In this document: piece by piece, positions 12,015-20,560 of the stretch
Position numbering within the stretch: the first letter of the stretch is position 1
How the letters are laid out: the number at the start of each line of letters is the position of its first letter
IMG/VR virus record: IMGVR_UViG_3300046787_000390
Span: 1 to 64,000 of that record
From: a virus
Direction: 5' to 3' (one strand)
DNA length: 64,000 nucleotides
Notes under the pieces: model-generated
Database searches by the model: none
Told to the model about the DNA's origin: nothing
The model's input: the letters and a program-made list of their open reading frames with translations, nothing else
Position numbers and translations under genes: made by a program

Positions 12015-12914
12015 GTGTCAACAACATTAACAAGAACGCCTGCCAAGGTAAATTACCTCAACAATCGCGACATTTTAAAAGAAATTCATTTAAGCAAGAA
12101 CACATATTGCTGGTATCAAGATCGTGTAAACGACCACCAATACGACATTATTTTACCTAGCTTGAGCAAGATAAATCAGCGTACAATAGCCGAAGCACGC
12201 CGAAACAGGGTTGATCGAATCAAACGTGAAACCGGTGAAGTACTAAACGAAAAGAAAATCCCGCACAGCGAGTTGGTATTCCGCATTACTTGTTGGGATC
12301 ATGTCCCGGCAGCACCTAAAAAAATTCCAAAAACACAAGCCAAGAAGAAAAAAATTGAAGATATCTTAGAGTTCGAAGAACTAATTGAGAACGAAGATGG
12401 TCTCGACGAAACGCTAGAAGTGCCAGTGCAAGATACTGCCAAGATGCGTCTTAACTTCCCTCCATTTGAGCATTATCGATTAGACGAAGAAAAGGTTCCT
12501 CAGCTGGTAGGTCGTAGTCACTGGAAGGGCGATTTGAAAACCGGCGAGTTCTCAAAGGAGCATGGGAACATGACCAAGAAGCTTGCCCTAATGTTTATGA
12601 AATTGTGTGAACGATATGCTACTCGTTCAAACTGGCGTGGGTATACTTACAATGAGGAAATGCGTGGACAGGCTCTACTACAACTATCTCAAATTGGTCT
12701 ACAGTTTGACGAATCCAAAAGCCAGAATCCCTTTGCATATTACACTGCCGCCATTACTAACAGCTTTACAAGAATTCTCAACATCGAAAAGAAGATGCAA
12801 AATATCAGAGATGACATTTTGGAAATAAACGGTTTGAACCCAAGTTGGACAAGACAAAACTCGGGAACGGGCAACTATGCGTCCGGACCGGTTGTATCTA
12901 CCTACAGTGAGTAG
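12015..12914 (+). CDS. 55: Late transcription sigma factor gp55
   Basis: A 299-residue protein with GTG start, chosen because AGGAG lies about 10 bases upstream. The C-terminal third carries the gp55 core: YNEEMRGQALLQLSQIGLQFD, NPFAYYTAAITNSFTRILN, EKKMQNIRDDILE and GLNPSWTRQ. T4 gp55 is 185 residues, so this one has a longer N-terminal and middle region with an acidic insert (EFEELIENEDGLDETLE). gp55 directs host polymerase to TATAAATA late promoters with gp33 and the clamp gp45, neither of which is in this window. It ends with UAG, the only UAG terminator in the window; after three more codons comes a second UAG and then the gp47 ATG, all in the same frame. Confidence 0.92.
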   Translation: MSTTLTRTPAKVNYLNNRDILKEIHLSKNTYCWYQDRVNDHQYDIILPSLSKINQRTIAEARRNRVDRIKRETGEVLNEKKIPHSELVFRITCWDHVPAAPKKIPKTQAKKKKIEDILEFEELIENEDGLDETLEVPVQDTAKMRLNFPPFEHYRLDEEKVPQLVGRSHWKGDLKTGEFSKEHGNMTKKLALMFMKLCERYATRSNWRGYTYNEEMRGQALLQLSQIGLQFDESKSQNPFAYYTAAITNSFTRILNIEKKMQNIRDDILEINGLNPSWTRQNSGTGNYASGPVVSTYSE

Positions 12915-12926
12915 TATACTGTATAG

Positions 12927-13943
12927 ATGAGTAATCTATTTAAAAAAGCTGCAATCTTCACTGACATCCATTTTGGCTTAAAGTCAAACAGTATTCTCCA
13001 CAACGAGGACTGTTTGTCTTTTGTCAAGTGGGCAACTGCCAAAGCAAAAGAGGAAGGGTGCGAAACTTGTTTGTTCCTCGGCGATTGGCACAACAATCGA
13101 TCGACTATTAACATTGTTACACTCAACTACAGCCTGCAAGCACTGGAACACCTAAATGCTAATTTTCAACGTGTGTATTTTATTCCTGGTAACCACGATT
13201 TATATTATCGCGATAAACGTGACATTCAAAGCGTGGAGTTTGCAAAGCACCTCCCTCGTGTTCAAATCTGCAATGATTGGTTCAGCGATGGTAATGTCAC
13301 TATTGCCCCTTGGCTATGTGGAGATGATCATAAACGCCTGGCCAAACTAAAAGGTGATTACTTGTTTGGGCACTTTGAGCTGCCCGGTTATTTGATGAAC
13401 GCAATGGTGGAGATGCCGGATCATGGGGAATTGCAACGAGATCAGCTTGGGGGCTTCGGTCATGTGTTCACTGGGCACTTCCACAAGCGACAGACTAAAA
13501 AGAACATTACCTACATCGGTAATGCGTTCCCTCACAATTATGCAGATGCTGGCGACGACGAACGAGGCCTCACTATTCTGGAGTGGGGACAAGCGCCTAC
13601 TTTTCATCAATGGCCTGATCAACCGACCTATAGGGTATACGGTCTTGCGAACCTTATCGACAACGCTGAAACACTTCTTAAAGCCAAAATGCACGTTCGT
13701 GTCAATCTAGACATTGAGATCAGTTACGAAGAAGCAGGCTTTATCAAAGACAACTTCATCACAAATTACAACTTGCGGGAAATGTCGTTGATTCCGAACA
13801 AAGCGGTTGGAGTTGATGAGGACATGGCACCCGGAGATGTCAAGTTTGAATCAGTGGATCAAATTGTCACTGATCAGATTACTAATATTGAATCAGAATT
13901 CTACGATAACAAACTTCTACTAAAGATTTACCAAAATCTATGA
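12927..13943 (+). CDS. 47: Recombination nuclease subunit gp47 (SbcD/Mre11-like)
   Basis: A 338-residue metallophosphoesterase. Motifs in order are FTDIHFG (residues 11-17), LGDWHNNRS (about 50), PGNHDLYY (about 88), GHFELPG (about 150) and FTGHFHKR (about 183), the five phosphoesterase metal-binding blocks of Mre11. With gp46 it forms the end-processing nuclease needed for recombination-dependent replication. It begins one codon after an in-frame UAG that follows gp55, and it has no clear Shine-Dalgarno sequence of its own. Its TGA overlaps the next start (ATGA). Confidence 0.93.
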   Translation: MSNLFKKAAIFTDIHFGLKSNSILHNEDCLSFVKWATAKAKEEGCETCLFLGDWHNNRSTINIVTLNYSLQALEHLNANFQRVYFIPGNHDLYYRDKRDIQSVEFAKHLPRVQICNDWFSDGNVTIAPWLCGDDHKRLAKLKGDYLFGHFELPGYLMNAMVEMPDHGELQRDQLGGFGHVFTGHFHKRQTKKNITYIGNAFPHNYADAGDDERGLTILEWGQAPTFHQWPDQPTYRVYGLANLIDNAETLLKAKMHVRVNLDIEISYEEAGFIKDNFITNYNLREMSLIPNKAVGVDEDMAPGDVKFESVDQIVTDQITNIESEFYDNKLLLKIYQNL

Positions 13944-14749
13944 TCTACTGTGTTTGGTATCCCAGCGGAGGGTTTGGGCACTTTGTTAATGCAGTGCTAA
14001 CGTTGCACGGCGACGGATTTGCAAGACCAAAAAACGACGTTAAATTTAGTGCAGTCGGCGATTTACATTATCTTGATTTAGTGTTACCAAAATATCTTCA
14101 CAATTATAATTACAATTATAATTTAGAAACTGTTGACCTAAACAAAAATTATTCTGTACTAATCGATAACGGTATCAACGACGAATCAACACTGTTCCGT
14201 GAAAAATTTAAAAATTCAGAAGTTATCAAAATATGTTATACTGATCGCAGTTGGCCAATAGTTGCAAAAACATCGATTATCAAAGCATTAAAAACTCAGC
14301 TCGATAGCGAGTTGCCACTAGAGAATAACTGGGAGTTGGACAACAACTGGGCGGTTAGAGAAAAGTATTTTCTCTATCTCAAGGATCATCCAAACCGGCA
14401 TGCGTGGAGACCGAGTCCTGCTAGCCACACATTATCAGTTGAATCGTTGCTTGACTACGAGTTGTTTGTAGAATTACTACTGTCATTTGGGATCAACTGC
14501 ACTGATTTTAAAAGTTTACACAGTGAGATGTTGAAGAACAACTGCCAACATTTTTCTGGGTTCCATTCTTCAGATAAAATTATCAATGCAATTAAAACCA
14601 ATGATCATATAAACATCGCCGATGTTACCGATCTGTGGGATCAAGCAGTTGTAAATTATTTTTTATATCTCGAGTTTGGGGTTGAGGTACCAGCAAACAC
14701 GTATGCTAACTGGTTTACCAACACTTCAGAAATTAGTAAAATACTTTAA
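13940..14749 (+). CDS. Unknown protein between gp47 and gp46
   Basis: A 269-residue protein whose ATG overlaps the gp47 stop codon. I do not recognise the family. The N-terminus (YPSGGFGHFVNAVL) has a glycine-rich turn between a beta strand and a helix, loosely like a P-loop or sulfotransferase start, but it lacks the GK(S/T). The middle has an Asn/Tyr-rich strand (NYNYNYN) and a YLKDHPNRHAWRPSPASH segment. No membrane segment or signal peptide is visible. It is co-transcribed with the oxygenase and radical SAM genes. Enzyme identity is not claimed. Confidence 0.75.
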   Translation: MIYCVWYPSGGFGHFVNAVLTLHGDGFARPKNDVKFSAVGDLHYLDLVLPKYLHNYNYNYNLETVDLNKNYSVLIDNGINDESTLFREKFKNSEVIKICYTDRSWPIVAKTSIIKALKTQLDSELPLENNWELDNNWAVREKYFLYLKDHPNRHAWRPSPASHTLSVESLLDYELFVELLLSFGINCTDFKSLHSEMLKNNCQHFSGFHSSDKIINAIKTNDHINIADVTDLWDQAVVNYFLYLEFGVEVPANTYANWFTNTSEISKIL

Positions 14750-14757
14750 CAATTTTT

Positions 14758-15375
14758 ATGTCAATGAATACTATAACACCAAATATACTGTACCGCAATG
14801 ATAAATTTTTATCGTTGAGTGAAGTTACTCACTATCAAAATTTATTGAAAAACAGAAATTGGGGACTCTCTGACACGCCAACCTTAGATACACTGCAATA
14901 TGTTAGTCAAGACTTGTACAACCATTACAAGTGGGACGGAAATTGGGACGATGCTAGATGGCTAGATTCAACGCCAGCAGATTGGGAACATTTATACAAT
15001 AAAATTGCTACTCATTTGCCGCCGCATTATGTACACTGGGTCGACGTTAAACTGACTGGATCTCTTCAAGGCGGAACTCCTATTCACAAAGATGCAGGTC
15101 CCGATCGATCTGGTGGTGACACAACAAAATTTAGCGAGTCGTTAACTGTATTGTGTAACTTAAACACTGGTTGGGACCCTCTGTGGGGCGGAGGATTAGT
15201 AGTTTATCAAACTTCAGTTGATTCTAATAATCATCAAGTAGCCGAAACAATACCGATTGTGCCCGGACAGTTGTTGATTGTTAATAACTGTTATCATTCT
15301 ATCGAATTAATTACTGAACCGTCCAAATGTAGAGTGTCTTTCATACTACATGTGTTAAAATATAAGCAATCATGA
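14758..15375 (+). CDS. 2OG-Fe(II) oxygenase family protein
   Basis: A 205-residue protein with the full facial-triad pattern of prolyl-hydroxylase-like 2-oxoglutarate oxygenases: H110-x-D112 in PIHKDAG, H180 in NNCYHSIELI, and the 2OG-binding arginine R192 in KCRVSFILHV, with the WGGGLVVY strand between. Such enzymes hydroxylate proteins, nucleic acid bases or small molecules; the substrate here is unknown. T4-like phages of aquatic bacteria often carry several. It sits between gp47 and gp46 and its TGA overlaps the gp46 ATG, so it is coupled to gp46. Confidence 0.82.
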   Translation: MSMNTITPNILYRNDKFLSLSEVTHYQNLLKNRNWGLSDTPTLDTLQYVSQDLYNHYKWDGNWDDARWLDSTPADWEHLYNKIATHLPPHYVHWVDVKLTGSLQGGTPIHKDAGPDRSGGDTTKFSESLTVLCNLNTGWDPLWGGGLVVYQTSVDSNNHQVAETIPIVPGQLLIVNNCYHSIELITEPSKCRVSFILHVLKYKQS

Positions 15376-17453
15376 TCAAATTTAAAAATTTAACTGTTAA
15401 AAACTTTATGAGTGTAGGTAACGCTACACAAGGCATCGACTTTGATCGTAAGGATCTTACCCTTGTGCTAGGCGAAAACTTAGACCTAGGCGGCGACGGT
15501 AGCCGCAATGGCACTGGCAAGACTACAATTATCAATGCATTAAGTTATGCCCTGTACGGCAATGCTCTAAGTAATATTCGTAAAGATAATCTTGTGAACA
15601 AAACTAACGGCAAGGCTATGCTGGTTAGTTTAGAGTTCGATGTTAACGGTAAAGAATACAAAATTGAACGTGGTCGTAAGCCCAACGTGCTAAAGTTCTA
15701 CGTTAATCACGAAGAACAAGCAGCAACAGACGAAGCACAGGGCGAAAACAAAGAGACACAAGAAGCAATTGAACGTATCCTAGGCATGAGTCATGACATG
15801 TTCAAACATGTGCTAGCCCTTAACACCTACACCGAACCGTTTCTAAGTTTAAAAGCCAATGAGCAGCGCACTATTATCGAGCAGTTGCTAGGCATTACAT
15901 TACTTTCGGAACGTGCCGACAAGATCAAAGAACTTAACAAGCAGACCAAAGACGGTATTGCACAAGAAGAGTTTCGTGTCCGGGCTGTACAAGAAGCAAA
16001 CAAACGTATTGAAGAACAAATCGAAAGTCTGCGCCGTAGACAAGGGCTATGGCAAAAGAAAGTAGACAGTGACTTAACCTATCTAGCTGCTCAATATACC
16101 GACCTGTCAAAAATTGACATCGAAGCTGAACTGCAAGCACATAAAGATCTAGCAGTATGGTCGGCTAAAAAGTCTCAACAAGATATATACAACTCTCTGG
16201 TTGCAAGAGAAACTGCCTGGCGACAAAAACACACATCTGAAGTTGCTGCTGCTGGGCATGCATACCTAGACAAGAATCGAATCAATATCGAAACTGAGCT
16301 CGAAGCGTGGGTAGCGTTGGCAGCATACAACCAAAAAGCCAAAGACATTGCAGATCTTGAAAAATTAATTGCTCGCTGTGTTTCCGACGAAGCTAAAGAA
16401 CAAAAAATTATCAATAAGTTAAAAGCCGAAGTGGAAGAGCTTAAAGCCCACAAGTGTTATGCGTGTGGGCAAGACTTCCATGACACCAATCACGAAACTG
16501 TGTTAGCTGCAAAAGAAAAAGCGTTGCAAGAAGCTGCGTTGCAAGCATTAGCAACTAACAGTCAATGGTTAGAAAATACAGATGCGTTAACAGCTCTAGG
16601 TGAATTAGGACCAAAGCCGGTAACACACTACAGCACAGAAGCCGAAGCTATTCGCCACTCAAGTGAGTTGAACAGCTTGAAGCAAGTGTTAGATGCCAAG
16701 GAAGCAGAAACAAATCCGTTCTCTGAACAAATTGAAGAATTAGAAGAAGTTGTTGTTCCTCCACAACCCACAACGCACTACGATACTGAAACAGAAGCAG
16801 TTGAGCACCGCAGCCGAGTAAACAACTTGTTAGATCAGATTGCCAAGAAGGGCGAAGAGAAGGATCCGTATACTGAGCAAATTGACGACATGCAGAAACA
16901 AGCTCTACAAAAAGTTGATTACGATAGAATCAACGAGCTTACACGCTTACAAGAACATCAAGACTTCTTGCTCAAGTTGTTAACTAGCAAAGACTCGTTT
17001 GTTCGCAAGAAGATCATCGATCAAAATTTAGCGTACCTAAATCAACGATTAACTCATTACTTAGATCGTATCGGATTGCCGCACACAGTTAAATTTAATA
17101 ACGATCTGTCTGTTAGCATTGAAGAGCTTGGTCGTGAACTTGACTTTGACAACTTGAGTCGAGGAGAGCGCACACGTTTGATTTTGTCAATGTCATGGGC
17201 CTTCCGAGATGTGTGGGAATCACTGTATCACCCGATCAACTTGCTGTTCATCGACGAATTAATTGACAACGGTTTAGACACAGCTGGTGTTGAAAACGCA
17301 CTAGGCCTGCTGAAGAAAATGAGCAGAGAGCGTCACAAGTCAATTTGGTTAGTATCACACAGAGACGAACTAGCCGGACGAGTAGAGAACATTCTCAAAG
17401 TAATTAAAGAGAATGGGTTCACATCATACAACACTGATATAGATGTCGCGTGA
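15372..17453 (+). CDS. 46: Recombination nuclease subunit gp46 (SbcC/Rad50-like ATPase)
   Basis: A 693-residue SMC-type ATPase. Walker A is at about residues 43-51 (GSRNGTGKT), followed by two long coiled-coil arms broken by a zinc hook CYACG at about residue 360. The ABC signature LSRGERTRLILS is at about 594, and Walker B LLFIDELIDNG at about 622. Length is near the usual range for gp46. It pairs with gp47 to resect DNA ends. Unlike T4, where the two genes are near neighbours, two extra genes lie between them here. It overlaps the next gene by 11 bases. Confidence 0.95.
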   Translation: MIKFKNLTVKNFMSVGNATQGIDFDRKDLTLVLGENLDLGGDGSRNGTGKTTIINALSYALYGNALSNIRKDNLVNKTNGKAMLVSLEFDVNGKEYKIERGRKPNVLKFYVNHEEQAATDEAQGENKETQEAIERILGMSHDMFKHVLALNTYTEPFLSLKANEQRTIIEQLLGITLLSERADKIKELNKQTKDGIAQEEFRVRAVQEANKRIEEQIESLRRRQGLWQKKVDSDLTYLAAQYTDLSKIDIEAELQAHKDLAVWSAKKSQQDIYNSLVARETAWRQKHTSEVAAAGHAYLDKNRINIETELEAWVALAAYNQKAKDIADLEKLIARCVSDEAKEQKIINKLKAEVEELKAHKCYACGQDFHDTNHETVLAAKEKALQEAALQALATNSQWLENTDALTALGELGPKPVTHYSTEAEAIRHSSELNSLKQVLDAKEAETNPFSEQIEELEEVVVPPQPTTHYDTETEAVEHRSRVNNLLDQIAKKGEEKDPYTEQIDDMQKQALQKVDYDRINELTRLQEHQDFLLKLLTSKDSFVRKKIIDQNLAYLNQRLTHYLDRIGLPHTVKFNNDLSVSIEELGRELDFDNLSRGERTRLILSMSWAFRDVWESLYHPINLLFIDELIDNGLDTAGVENALGLLKKMSRERHKSIWLVSHRDELAGRVENILKVIKENGFTSYNTDIDVA

Positions 17454-18306
17454 TATAAAGATCTTACACTTAGAAACAACGGATGTGTGCCAAGCAGCAT
17501 GTCCGTTGTGTGCTCGTGAGACTGATCCAGAGTTCAACAAGAGTACAAAGCATCATCTTGACATGAATAAAATCATGCAGGTGTTTGATGCTGCACAAAT
17601 TTCTAAATTAGATAAAATGTTCATGTGTGGTAACTACGGTGATCCAGCTGCGGGCAAACACACGCTAGACATATACCGAGAGTTTCGCAAACTTAACCCC
17701 GACATTGTATTAGGAATGAATACAAATGGTGCATTGCGAACTTCAAAGTGGTGGGGTGAACTTGGAAGTATATTAAATCAAACACAAGACTATGTTGTGT
17801 TTAGTATCGACGGACTAGAAGATACCAATCACATCTATCGCAAAAATGTAAACTGGGATAACTTGATAACAAATGTTAATGCATTTGTTGCTGCTGGCGG
17901 TTCAGCACACTGGGACATGTTGGTGTACCAGCACAACGAACATCAAGTTGACCAATGCCTGCAACTTGCACGTGACTTGGGATTTAAGTGGTTTAGATCC
18001 AAGGTATCGTTGCGTAAGCTAACAGATAATTTAAGTTGGCCAACAGGTTGGTTGCAATCTAAACAAAACAGTAGTACAATACATTGTCATGCATTAGAAG
18101 AGCAAAGTCTTTTCATTGATGCACAAGGTCGGGTAAGTGTTTGTGCCTGGTTAGGGGCAACGCAAGGAGATACCATAAGTGATGTTGAACAAGTTAGGTC
18201 TACCTGGACATCAAGTAAGCCTCATCCTATTTGTTCAAGAATGTGTTCAGTGCAGTCATCTGGTACAAACTTTACCAACCAATGGAAATACGAAATAGAA
18301 CTATGA
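17443..18306 (+). CDS. Radical SAM protein 1 with C-terminal cysteine cluster (SPASM-like)
   Basis: A 287-residue protein. Near the N-terminus DVCQAACPLC gives the CxxxCxxC cluster (C16, C20, C23) that holds the 4Fe-4S cluster for S-adenosylmethionine cleavage. A TIM-barrel-like pattern follows (MCGNYGDPAAG in place of the GGE motif, MNTNGAL, FSIDGLEDTNHIYR). The C-terminus has CHALEE, DAQGRVSVCAW and PICSRMCS, resembling the auxiliary cluster region of SPASM enzymes that modify peptides. Substrate unknown. It overlaps gp46 upstream and the second radical SAM gene downstream (ATGA). Confidence 0.85.
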   Translation: MSRDIKILHLETTDVCQAACPLCARETDPEFNKSTKHHLDMNKIMQVFDAAQISKLDKMFMCGNYGDPAAGKHTLDIYREFRKLNPDIVLGMNTNGALRTSKWWGELGSILNQTQDYVVFSIDGLEDTNHIYRKNVNWDNLITNVNAFVAAGGSAHWDMLVYQHNEHQVDQCLQLARDLGFKWFRSKVSLRKLTDNLSWPTGWLQSKQNSSTIHCHALEEQSLFIDAQGRVSVCAWLGATQGDTISDVEQVRSTWTSSKPHPICSRMCSVQSSGTNFTNQWKYEIEL

Positions 18307-19334
18307 CTGCGAAGATTGTTAAGATTACTCCTACAGAGGACTTGTTCTCTATTACTTGGAGCATGCACAAAAGATGCAACAACGACTGCATGTACTGCGG
18401 CGACTTCTTGCACGACAACACTTCCCCAGTTAGACCACTTGCTGAATTGCAAGAACATTGGTTGCAGGTATTTGAGAAAACAAAGCATCTTGGACTCAAA
18501 TACAAGATCTCAATCACAGGCGGTGAAGCGGTAATCAACAAGGACTTTAGACCGTTTGTTGACTGGCTTACTGACAACTACAGCAGCAATATTCAAGTTA
18601 TCGGGCTAACTAGCAACGGAACTTCTAGTAAAAACTACTATCTAGGTCTACTCGAAAAAGTAACATTTTTAACATTGAGTACCCATACTGAAACAATGGA
18701 TGTAGAAAGATTTGTCGATACAGCTATTGCATGCAACACATATTCACAAAATACACCTGGTAAATTTTTCATGGTTAACATCATGGAAGAGTACTGGGCA
18801 CTCGACACAATTAAGCATCTTATTGATGTTTGCAAAGCCAACCAAATACGATATAGCATTAACAAGATCGATTACTACCGGTCTGGGTCAAAAGAGTATC
18901 CTGTGTTTGTAATTAACAAACAAAACGTTCCTCGCCCAGATTTGCAAAAGTCGCCAGAAGTAATAGAAGCAGCACATCGTGTGATTCAGGATTATGCTAA
19001 CTTGCACACAGTTCCTACTGATTACTATTACAACGTAGAAGTTGGGTACGACGATGATTCGTCTATTAATACGTATGCTACAAGACTCAAGTTTTTGGGT
19101 TTTAGCCAATTCAAGGGCTGGCAATGTTCAGCAGGCTATAAACGGATTTCTATTGCATCAGACACTTCGGTATACAGTGGCGAATGCAATAATCGATTGT
19201 TGGGTAAACTTTCAGATAACAGTTTTCAACTTTTACAGGCACCGGATATATGTTTACAGCGTACATGTACCGGCAACCCAGACGATCTAATGATAAACAA
19301 ACAAATTTTAGGTGACGACCCCCGGCAATCATAA
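18303..19334 (+). CDS. Radical SAM protein 2 with C-terminal cysteine cluster
   Basis: A 343-residue protein; the start is placed at the ATG overlapping the previous TGA rather than at an in-frame start 72 bases upstream. KRCNNDCMYCGDF gives CxxxCxxC (C25, C29, C32), followed by SITGGEAVINKDF (GGE motif), LTSNGT and LSTHTE strands. C-terminal cysteines occur in WQCSAG, YSGECNN and CLQRTCTG, again like a SPASM auxiliary site. It differs in sequence from its neighbour, so it is not a recent duplication. Pairing of two such enzymes suggests a two-step or two-substrate modification; the target is unknown. Confidence 0.85.
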   Translation: MTAKIVKITPTEDLFSITWSMHKRCNNDCMYCGDFLHDNTSPVRPLAELQEHWLQVFEKTKHLGLKYKISITGGEAVINKDFRPFVDWLTDNYSSNIQVIGLTSNGTSSKNYYLGLLEKVTFLTLSTHTETMDVERFVDTAIACNTYSQNTPGKFFMVNIMEEYWALDTIKHLIDVCKANQIRYSINKIDYYRSGSKEYPVFVINKQNVPRPDLQKSPEVIEAAHRVIQDYANLHTVPTDYYYNVEVGYDDDSSINTYATRLKFLGFSQFKGWQCSAGYKRISIASDTSVYSGECNNRLLGKLSDNSFQLLQAPDICLQRTCTGNPDDLMINKQILGDDPRQS

Positions 19335-19343
19335 TTACTGTTA

Positions 19344-19775
19344 ATGTCGTGGCAATATCAAAATCAACTCGTAGAAACTTTACCAGAAGACTGTGTTGGC
19401 TTTGTATATCTAATCACTAACATTACTACTCAACGCAAATACATAGGCAAAAAACTAGCAAAATTTAAGAAAACAACTTACAAAACAGTTAAACTTAAAA
19501 ACGGCACAAAGAAAAAAAAGAAAATTAGAGGAAGCATTGATTCTGACTGGCGAGAGTATTACGGTTCTAGCCCAGAATTAACCAAAGATGTACTAGCATT
19601 AGGCACAGCAAACTTTACTCGTGAAATATTGTTTTACTGCAAATCAAAAGCAGAATGCAGTTATATCGAGGCTAGAGAACAGTTTGCAAGGCGTGTGCTA
19701 GAATCAGCAGATTATTACAACGGGCATATTCAAGTACGTGTACACGGAAGTCACGTAATAGGTAAAATTAAATGA
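19344..19775 (+). CDS. GIY-YIG nuclease domain protein (Seg-like)
   Basis: A 143-residue protein with the GIY-YIG fold signature in variant form: G19-F-V-Y22-L-I and K32-Y-I-G35-K-K. A lysine-rich loop, then DWREYYGSS, FTREILFYCKSKAECSYIEAREQF (catalytic glutamate probably in this helix) and a short C-terminal segment follow. Similar free-standing nucleases in T4-like phages are homing endonucleases or degradative enzymes. There is no separate DNA-binding domain beyond the basic loop. Lies 9 bases after radical SAM 2 and overlaps the next gene (ATGA). Confidence 0.75.
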   Translation: MSWQYQNQLVETLPEDCVGFVYLITNITTQRKYIGKKLAKFKKTTYKTVKLKNGTKKKKKIRGSIDSDWREYYGSSPELTKDVLALGTANFTREILFYCKSKAECSYIEAREQFARRVLESADYYNGHIQVRVHGSHVIGKIK

Positions 19776-20560
19776 CAGTATCTCTATTCGTAGGATGTTC
19801 TTTTACTTCAGGTAAAGGGTTTGATCTTGAAAAAGACGAGCCAGGCCTATGGGTAAATCAAGTACATTCAACTAACAAAGATCTACAAAAAACCGAACTT
19901 GTTAATCACGGCGTCTCCGGAGCTTCAAATTCAGAAATTTTCTACAATGCAGTTAGCGGGTTAGTTAACTTCACTCCTAAGTATATGTTTGTTCAGTGGA
20001 CTCGAAGCCCACGATACAGAGTACAATTAGGTGTTGAATCTTATGTTGCTAGTCAGTACTTTGGTATGGACGGCGAAGTATTTGACCACAACTTGCACAG
20101 TATAAATTACACCGCTGGGTATCTCGAAGATGTAAGAAATAGATTTCTATCGTTACATCATCCGCAAGGCGGAATAGTAGAGATAATTAAGTACACAAAC
20201 ACTCTTATAAATCTTTCAAAAACTACAAACACTAAAGTATTTTTTATCAACGGACTATGTCCGTGGGATGATCAATTTTTTAATAAAATTAACGGCAACA
20301 CTCCAAGCGATTACACCAAATACACACAGTATCTACTAGATTCAGACACTAGAAGCGACCAAGAAGTTTTTACACTTTACAATAAAATACATAACGAATA
20401 CTCACAAGCTGGCAGCATACAAGAGCAGTACTGGATTAATTTATATAATTCTTTCACTGACAACAAAATCGACGTTAACAACGATAATACACACCCAGGC
20501 ATCAAATCCAATCAGCTGTATTTTGACATCGTCAACCAATTCTTAACAAACACAATTTAA
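19772..20560 (+). CDS. SGNH/GDSL hydrolase-like protein
   Basis: A 262-residue protein with SGNH blocks: block I VGCSFTSGKG near the N-terminus (nucleophile Ser10 in GCSF), block II NHGVSGASNSE, and the C-terminal catalytic Asp-His pair in DNTHPG. These are esterases or acetyl-hydrolases acting on carbohydrates and lipids; phage versions could modify surface glycans or act in metabolism. No signal peptide is present, so it should be cytoplasmic. It is the last gene of the gp55 operon; a gene-free gap follows. Confidence 0.72.
   Translation: MTVSLFVGCSFTSGKGFDLEKDEPGLWVNQVHSTNKDLQKTELVNHGVSGASNSEIFYNAVSGLVNFTPKYMFVQWTRSPRYRVQLGVESYVASQYFGMDGEVFDHNLHSINYTAGYLEDVRNRFLSLHHPQGGIVEIIKYTNTLINLSKTTNTKVFFINGLCPWDDQFFNKINGNTPSDYTKYTQYLLDSDTRSDQEVFTLYNKIHNEYSQAGSIQEQYWINLYNSFTDNKIDVNNDNTHPGIKSNQLYFDIVNQFLTNTI

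Follow-up and report, generated by a model that had tools for sequence, protein, structure and literature searches.

Exchangeable enzyme cargo at a fixed gp46/gp47 backbone in T4-like lake phages

The locus examined here raises the question of whether a run of putative modification enzymes, found in and around the genes for gp46 and gp47, forms one functional unit or has some other reason to lie there. We analyzed a window of 64,000 nucleotides (positions 1 to 64,000 of the virus record IMGVR_UViG_3300046787_000390) and compared the locus with related loci. The reading that we favor, with a probability of about 0.55, is that the locus is a hypervariable cargo site on a fixed backbone, exchanged by recombination and holding tailoring enzymes for a glycan or a small metabolite.

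All genes of the cassette are on the plus strand, at the coordinates originally given. On the left, also on the plus strand, are two backbone genes, one for a late sigma factor (T4 gp55-like; 12015..12914; phrog_12791, 4e-76) and gp47, encoding an SbcD-like recombination nuclease subunit (12927..13943; phrog_100, 5e-58). As had been predicted, gp47 is separated from the backbone gene gp46 (SbcC-like; 15372..17453; phrog_77, 2e-108) by a gene for a 269-residue protein with no known family (UNK1; 13940..14749) and a gene for a 2OG-Fe(II) oxygenase (14758..15375), the first and second cargo genes of slot A. Downstream of gp46 are two radical SAM genes, RS1 (17443..18306; PF04055, 5e-10) and RS2 (18303..19334; PF04055, 1.6e-5; the true start is the ATG at 18303), which are the first and second cargo genes of slot B. 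They are followed by a GIY-YIG endonuclease gene (19344..19775; PF19835, 6.6e-32) and, in slot C, a gene for an SGNH-hydrolase-like protein (19772..20560). This part of the prediction also held, with the SGNH assignment based on motifs only. The genes are tightly packed, and ATGA overlaps, first described for nearly all junctions, are present at four of the seven; one other junction has an 11-nt overlap and two have gaps of 8-9 nt. The arrangement is not due to chance, because a second record (L002) has a copy that is 90-100% identical and members of the cassette families recur at these positions in dozens of further records.

The order sigma factor, gp47, gp46, GIY-YIG was unchanged in all 236 viral loci compared (236/236). 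The sigma factor gene preceded gp47 in 191 of the 191 loci where both were found, and GIY-YIG followed gp46 in every locus with both genes. By its match to PF19835 (110.8 bits versus a cut-off of 25), the endonuclease is of the SegE type. It had been counted as part of the inserted cassette, but we rejected it as cargo since it is an invariant backbone gene in these loci, forming the fixed right border of slot B. In several cultured relatives, GIY-YIG is located by or near ribonucleotide reductase genes. Nor does RS1 always accompany gp46: it looked universal in a bait-biased sample, but gp47-based sampling placed it directly after gp46 in only 18 of 64 loci, and we rejected an obligatory partnership.

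Cargo was found at four junctions: between the sigma factor gene and gp47, between gp47 and gp46, between gp46 and GIY-YIG, and after GIY-YIG. Among non-redundant loci, the first three were filled in 45/129, 101/143 and 120/143, respectively; part of the loci had been collected with RS1 and UNK1 as baits, so that frequencies beyond the gp47-sampled subset (57 loci) carry a bias. Some relatives have empty slots, and the cultured relative PA5oct has an empty junction. A hotspot is characterized by accessory genes that vary while the core genes around them stay syntenic, and by empty sites in relatives, and comparison of gene order across the loci shows this architecture: a fixed backbone with slots that are interchangeable or empty. 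The cargo is arranged in short modules, in which start and stop codons often overlap, and includes radical SAM/twitch enzymes, B12-radical SAM enzymes, SDR proteins, 2OG oxygenases, SGNH proteins and acyl-AMP ligases. No glycosyltransferase was recognized among the slot cargo. The phage examined here also encodes a glycosyltransferase-like island.

The distribution of cargo was compared with a tree of gp47. The numbers of parsimony changes were near those for shuffled labels (RS1, 42 versus 48.0; UNK1, 38 versus 43.5; r1, 41 versus 43.3; 2OG oxygenase, 7 versus 8.9), with the caveat that gp47 itself may recombine. Congruence of sequence identity with gp47 was lower for RS1 (rho 0.25) and UNK1 (0.35) than for GIY-YIG (0.60). 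On the gp47 tree, cargo presence is nearly random, and cargo comes and goes almost independently of backbone phylogeny, a pattern that fits homologous recombination in the conserved flanking genes as the route of exchange.

Turnover of this kind bears on the possibility that the cargo serves auxiliary host metabolism, boosting or redirecting the turnover of cofactors, aromatic acids or polyols rather than decorating a surface. Some cargo sets do look catabolic: one locus (L026) has a TctC receptor, Rieske-like proteins and an acyl-AMP ligase, resembling catabolism more than tailoring, and TctC with AMP-binding cargo was confirmed in two others (L133/L096). Lake Baikal viruses that carry radical SAM genes have been linked to PQQ supply (PMC7678222), which also counts in favor. 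However, close relatives differ in cargo, an unusual pattern if a single host metabolism set the common need; none of the pathways is complete, and no PQQ genes were recognized in the cassette. We regard a role in host metabolism as possible but doubtful.

Some cargo genes are firmly linked and others are together no more often than expected. The 2OG oxygenase gene was directly after UNK1 in nine of nine non-redundant loci, and this adjacency recurs in a distant lineage (L167/L168). Other modules are UNK1-SGNH5 (18/18), B12-radical SAM-bs6 (15/16) and radical SAM r2-SDR (26/27, some fused). The r1 and r2 types are alternatives, being together in 1 locus versus 10.0 expected (p = 3e-5). RS1 and RS2 were together in 3 loci versus 3.1 expected. 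UNK1, to the left of gp46, and RS1, to its right, were together in 21 versus 28.3 expected, and tree-controlled pairs also gave no positive link. Cargo on either side of gp46 is not positively linked.

These counts bear on the proposal that UNK1 through SGNH act on one substrate in a single pathway. Tight packing, the constant UNK1-2OG pairing and the retention of the same gene set in L002 argue for it, as does the finding that the two radical SAM types adjoin in some bacterial operons (RS2-type next to r2/RS1-type), with r2, RS2 and RS1 contiguous in L277. Against it are the chance-level co-occurrence of RS1 and RS2, the lack of a positive link between UNK1 and RS1, the presence of SGNH family relatives in all four slots, and the backbone status of GIY-YIG. 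We consider a single pathway unlikely. The idea of one cassette with one function is only partly right, because RS1 and RS2 are at chance level and there is no positive link across gp46: shared function is plausible for the UNK1-2OG module and is not supported for the whole run. Most of the genes do occur apart in relatives, the outcome that was to count against the original prediction, and the UNK1-2OG pair stays together.

Another possibility is that the cassette hypermodifies DNA bases, protecting phage DNA against host restriction or against the gp46/gp47 nuclease encoded alongside. The T4 alpha-glucosyltransferase gene is close to gp47, with only 47.1 between them, and both 2OG and radical SAM enzymes are able to act on bases. 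But 30 of the 32 records, this one among them, lack a thymidylate-synthase-family protein (the T4 hydroxymethylase type), near relatives differ in cargo, and no base-modification family was recognized in the cassette. Base hypermodification seems improbable.

UNK1 has an N-terminal YPSGGFGHF motif and no match in Pfam, PHROG, NCBIfam or PDB. In an HMM-based cargo table its homologues (54 in 143 loci) were all in the slot between gp47 and gp46, and from its glycine-rich N-terminus we suspect a sulfotransferase-like fold. The oxygenase match to PF13640 is weak (5e-5, scoring just below gathering), and its HxD, distal His and Arg (HxD..H..R) are invariant in nine family members, as in 2OG-Fe(II) enzymes. 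SGNH hydrolases have the blocks GDS..G..N..DxxH; the SGNH-like protein has GCSF at residue 8 and DNTH at residue 238, with no family-profile match. Look-ups of solved structures for RS1, RS2 and UNK1 gave nothing useful.

RS1 and RS2 both belong to the radical SAM superfamily, with CX3CX2C in the barrel and matches to PF04055. In RS1 this motif is at residues 16-23 (C16/C20/C23) and is followed by CX13GX4C..CX3C at 215-268; the cysteines, including C215, C234, C264 and C268, are invariant in 26 homologues. RS2 has CX3CX2C at 25-32 (C25/C29/C32), C-terminal cysteines C275, C295, C317 and C322, and MoaA/viperin-like NCBIfam matches below cut-offs. A SPASM domain has a seven-Cys motif, CX9-15GX4C-gap-CX2CX5CX3C-gap-C (PMC6231123). 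We rejected a full SPASM domain, and with it the earlier SPASM-like label, since each protein has only four C-terminal cysteines and RS1 has only the first half, CX13GX4C. From the cysteine pattern, which is exact in RS1 and fits less exactly in RS2, both are twitch-type, with one predicted auxiliary Fe-S cluster. They share CX3CX2C and the four-Cys C-terminal pattern (as in BtrN) with BtrN, MoaA and SkfB, but they resemble these enzymes only weakly in sequence, chiefly in the barrel, and scores do not indicate family membership.

Radical SAM pairs are common in RiPP clusters, and peptides had been named among their frequent substrates, with a virion protein, a host protein or a nucleotide as possible targets here. 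By family profile, the closest solved relative is SkfB, a twitch sactisynthase (7e-7). CX3CX2C begins at residue 16 (RS1) or 25 (RS2), too close to the N-terminus for an RRE to precede it. Intergenic gaps within the cassette are at most 9 nt long, so that it contains no precursor peptide gene, as had been noted; nor was a convincing small gene seen just downstream. With neither RRE nor precursor gene, the two features of a RiPP maturase system, and no match above any RiPP maturase cut-off, crosslinking or epimerization of a peptide or virion protein by RS1 and RS2 is very unlikely, and a peptide substrate has lost support.

Radical SAM genes are abundant in this lineage. Each of 31 related records has 3-21, and an A-type Fe-S carrier is present in nine of nine records of at least 230 kb; eight cultured T4-superfamily phages have 0-1 radical SAM genes each and no carrier (0/8). 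Carrying as many as 21 radical SAM genes alongside Fe-S carriers implies a heavy demand for iron and SAM during infection. A strict pattern search found no cellular RS1 orthologues, and a broader profile found cellular relatives at 36-42% identity. In Bdellovibrio-type bacteria, homologues are in multi-radical-SAM operons with SDR genes, several of which also contain glycosyltransferase family 2 genes. Where bacteria have a single RS1 relative, its neighbors follow no consistent pattern.

T4-like cyanophages have hyperplastic or hypervariable regions and mobile gene cassettes (Sullivan 2010, PMC3037559; Millard 2009 as cited there). As here, variable accessory genes lie between core genes, including a gp46-gp25 hot spot, and there are endonuclease-flanked cassettes (PMC3037559). 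In contrast, the slots described here are junctions within the sigma-gp47-gp46-GIY block itself, and they hold mainly radical SAM and other tailoring enzymes rather than photosynthesis and carbon genes. TARA_ERS488813_N000010, which has an Fe-S carrier alongside its 12 radical SAM genes (Nishimura 2017, PMC5332604), and pelagimyophages, with radical SAM cassettes (PMC7029224), resemble this lineage in their many radical SAM genes with an A-type carrier and in cassettes in variable regions. They are marine, whereas this lineage is from lakes and reaches 21 radical SAM genes in one record. An island in Pelagibacter phage Mosig EXVC030M has several MoaA-type annotations with aminotransferase, dioxygenase, carbamoyltransferase and methyltransferase genes, which overlap, but similarity to RS1 is only 21% identity over 62% of its length, and only one PF04055 match was found. 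The cultured Aeromonas jumbo phage 332-Vera is also radical SAM-rich, with eight such genes in one cluster that its authors call "highly unusual" (PMC12390700); it belongs to the Chimallinviridae (phiKZ-like), and its cluster is not a gp46/gp47 slot. As far as we found, the fixed slot architecture that the lineage studied here has beside gp46/gp47 has not been described before.

The cargo enzymes probably tailor glycans or small metabolites. Under the hypervariable-site reading, their target would be a glycan or small metabolite belonging to the host surface, the virion or a phage-made glycoconjugate, and diversifying selection would drive phages to swap cargo, for instance to counter surface-directed defense or superinfection. 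The phage-encoded A-type carriers may help load the many Fe-S enzymes. UNK1 and the 2OG oxygenase would form one functional module in this genome, and for RS1 and RS2, action at one step or at adjoining steps would be expected only if their bacterial pairing reflects joint function. More tentatively, this lineage of T4-like lake phages of about 300 kb might practice a combinatorial chemistry, in which each phage draws its own set of radical SAM and other tailoring enzymes from a common pool; the enzymes, supported by phage Fe-S carriers, would be swapped through the slots to make ever-changing modified glycans or small molecules.

The locus provides a fixed genomic address for the exchange of enzyme modules, where natural empty sites and alternative fillings serve as controls. 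It is also a source of new enzymology, including UNK1, which has no known relatives, together with radical SAM pairs that Bdellovibrio-type bacteria also have. Our findings suggest that these phages trade modules of chemistry rather than carry one fixed pathway.

All eight genes named in the original prediction, which read 13940-20560 as one tightly coupled modification-enzyme cassette around gp46/gp47, were found intact and collinear, in a virus record (G000) of 133,497 bases: SbcD-like gp47, the unknown protein UNK1 (13940-14749), a 2OG oxygenase (14758-15375), SbcC-like gp46 (15372-17453), the radical SAM enzymes RS1 (17443-18306) and RS2 (18303-19334), a SegE-type GIY-YIG endonuclease (19344-19775) and an SGNH-hydrolase-like protein. 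ATGA overlaps (-4) join gp47/UNK1, 2OG/gp46, RS1/RS2 and GIY-YIG/SGNH; the other junctions are +8 (UNK1/2OG), -11 (gp46/RS1) and +9 (RS2/GIY-YIG). The overlaps are thus real, at four of seven junctions instead of nearly all. There was no room between genes for a hidden precursor peptide gene, in agreement with the absence noted earlier. A near-copy of the locus (90-100% protein identity) is present in IMGVR_UViG_3300012347_000312.

We gathered viral relatives with six baits (RS1, gp47, RS2, 2OG, UNK1 and SGNH). The order sigma (a gp55-like late sigma factor)–gp47–gp46–GIY-YIG was kept wherever these genes were present (236 loci and the window). Of these, 143 non-redundant loci were complete from gp47 to GIY-YIG. 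The slot between sigma and gp47 was occupied in 45 of 129 loci, gp47|gp46 (slot A) in 101 of 143 and gp46|GIY-YIG (slot B) in 120 of 143, frequencies that come from fragmentary metagenomic records and carry bait bias outside the gp47-sampled subset. The gp47 stop lies in an ATGA in 36 of the 42 loci where slot A is empty and in 85 of the 101 where it is filled. Because the order is constant and the filling variable, RS1, RS2, UNK1, 2OG and SGNH are cargo and the GIY-YIG gene, previously counted as a cassette member, belongs to the backbone. Many phage records, and PHROG 447, label its homologues 'NAD synthetase', apparently an annotation error that has been copied onward. gp46 and its relatives fell into two classes by aligned length, one of about 1.76 kb and one of about 2.08 kb, which did not sort by cargo. 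In cultured PA5oct, sigma, gp47 and gp46 follow in this order and slot A is empty; in T4, small genes lie between 46 and 47, and alpha-glucosyltransferase immediately past 47.1.

Cargo was assigned by family HMMs, and co-occurrence was counted across loci. UNK1 was in slot A in all 54 of its loci. Both 2OG (9/9 loci) and the family SGNH5 (18/18) were always with UNK1, and never both beside the same UNK1. We infer that the UNK1-2OG pair is old, because a distant lineage (L167/L168) keeps the order gp47-UNK1-2OG-gp46 at identities of 58% (gp47), 25% (UNK1), 45% (2OG) and 50% (gp46). Other modules were the radical SAM family r2 with SDR (26/27 loci; at times one fused protein, L055) and B12-radical SAM with the small protein bs6 (15/16). 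The families r1 and r2 were mutually alternative (1 joint case observed, 10.0 expected, p=3e-5). RS1 and RS2 co-occurred at chance (3 observed versus 3.1 expected), and UNK1 with RS1, which would tie slots A and B, in 21 loci versus 28.3 expected; with tree control the latter link was not significant (17 independent pairs, about 1.9 same, 5.5 opposite). The window's gene set is a sample of modules in a hotspot, and the one-cassette reading is only partly right: it is supported for UNK1-2OG and not for RS1-RS2 or UNK1-RS1. Some slots hold TctC-type receptors and an acyl-AMP ligase (L026:1930-6204; slot A of L133 and L088), with Rieske-like oxygenase genes also in L026; this cargo looks catabolic, which is unexpected in phage.

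Changes in cargo presence on a gp47 tree (FastTree) were nearly as frequent as with shuffled labels: RS1, 42 (shuffled 48.0); UNK1, 38 (43.5); r1, 41 (43.3); r2, 23 (25.3); cSAM, 24 (23.8); 2OG, 7 (8.9). Pairwise identity tracked that of gp47 well for GIY-YIG (rho 0.60); the correlation was weak for RS1 (0.25) and UNK1 (0.35). Cargo would be swapped most simply by recombination through the core genes on either side, and the GIY-YIG enzyme might have a role in the exchange.

Both RS1 and RS2 show the radical SAM motif, and each has four Cys in its C-terminal part; no NCBIfam model scored above its own cut-off for either. The C-terminal pattern of RS1 is exactly CX13GX4C..CX3C, which corresponds to the SPASM motif (PMC6231123) cut to its first half. 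RS1 is therefore predicted to carry a twitch domain, its four Cys being arranged as in BtrN (PMC9012708). The expected pair of radical SAM enzymes stands; the SPASM-like label suits neither of them. RS1 is highly conserved, and its catalytic and auxiliary Cys are invariant in 26 diverse homologues. The 2OG enzyme retains HxD, the distal His and Arg; UNK1 matched no known family in Pfam, PHROG, NCBIfam or PDB.

A broader alignment, used to search for cellular relatives, gave 78 bacterial loci. Several Bdellovibrionia/Oligoflexia genomes hold the phage families together, with an RS2-type gene (similarity low, 22-29%) directly upstream of an r2-type gene in L258, L259, L265, L283, L305 and L310, and contiguous r2-RS2-RS1 plus SDR and r1 in L277. 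Family 2 glycosyltransferases lie close by in L277, L269 and L265. These contexts favor glycan-related chemistry without proving it. Where RS1 relatives stand alone, as in cyanobacteria and others, they had no gene context in common. We put glycan or small-molecule tailoring first among readings of the predicted chemistry. L272 (NZHE01000012.1, 47 kb, assigned to a Rickettsiales bin) has eleven near-tandem radical-SAM-type genes; its downstream ORFs look phage-like, so the contig may come from a phage and have been binned wrongly.

Elsewhere in G000, a second cargo island (95998-99182; L083:11998-15182), a minus-strand f23+f17+STa-like triple, adjoins the third radical SAM gene of the record and lies beside a DnaB-type helicase. 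The f23+f17+STa module that it resembles occupies gp47|gp46 in L018, L027 and L158; modules of this type may not be confined to a single genomic address. By eye, 67977-82657 (L082:3977-18657) is an island of glycosyltransferase-like ORFs, with cytidylyltransferase-type, SGNH-like and methyltransferase-like genes. A ribosomal protein S21 gene (131537-131692; PF01165, 8.7e-19) is likewise found in other large aquatic phages.

Radical SAM matches numbered 3-21 in each of 31 related records, including those reached only with gp47 (288 in about 5.1 Mb), and an Fe-S A-type carrier was present in 9/9 records of at least 230 kb versus 1/22 shorter ones. G000 itself contributes three radical SAM genes and a single carrier, which lies outside the window (105485-105808; L084:1485-1808; PF01521, 8e-21) and is overlapped by an acetyltransferase-like ORF. 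Eight cultured T4-superfamily phages had 0-1 radical SAM genes and no carrier. A marine T4-like genome has 12 radical SAM genes and a carrier (PMC5332604), pelagimyophages carry radical SAM cassettes (PMC7029224), and phage 332-Vera, unrelated to this lineage and alike in its many radical SAM genes, has eight (PMC12390700). Sites of this kind are known already; the variant seen here is new in its address, modular grammar and radical SAM load.
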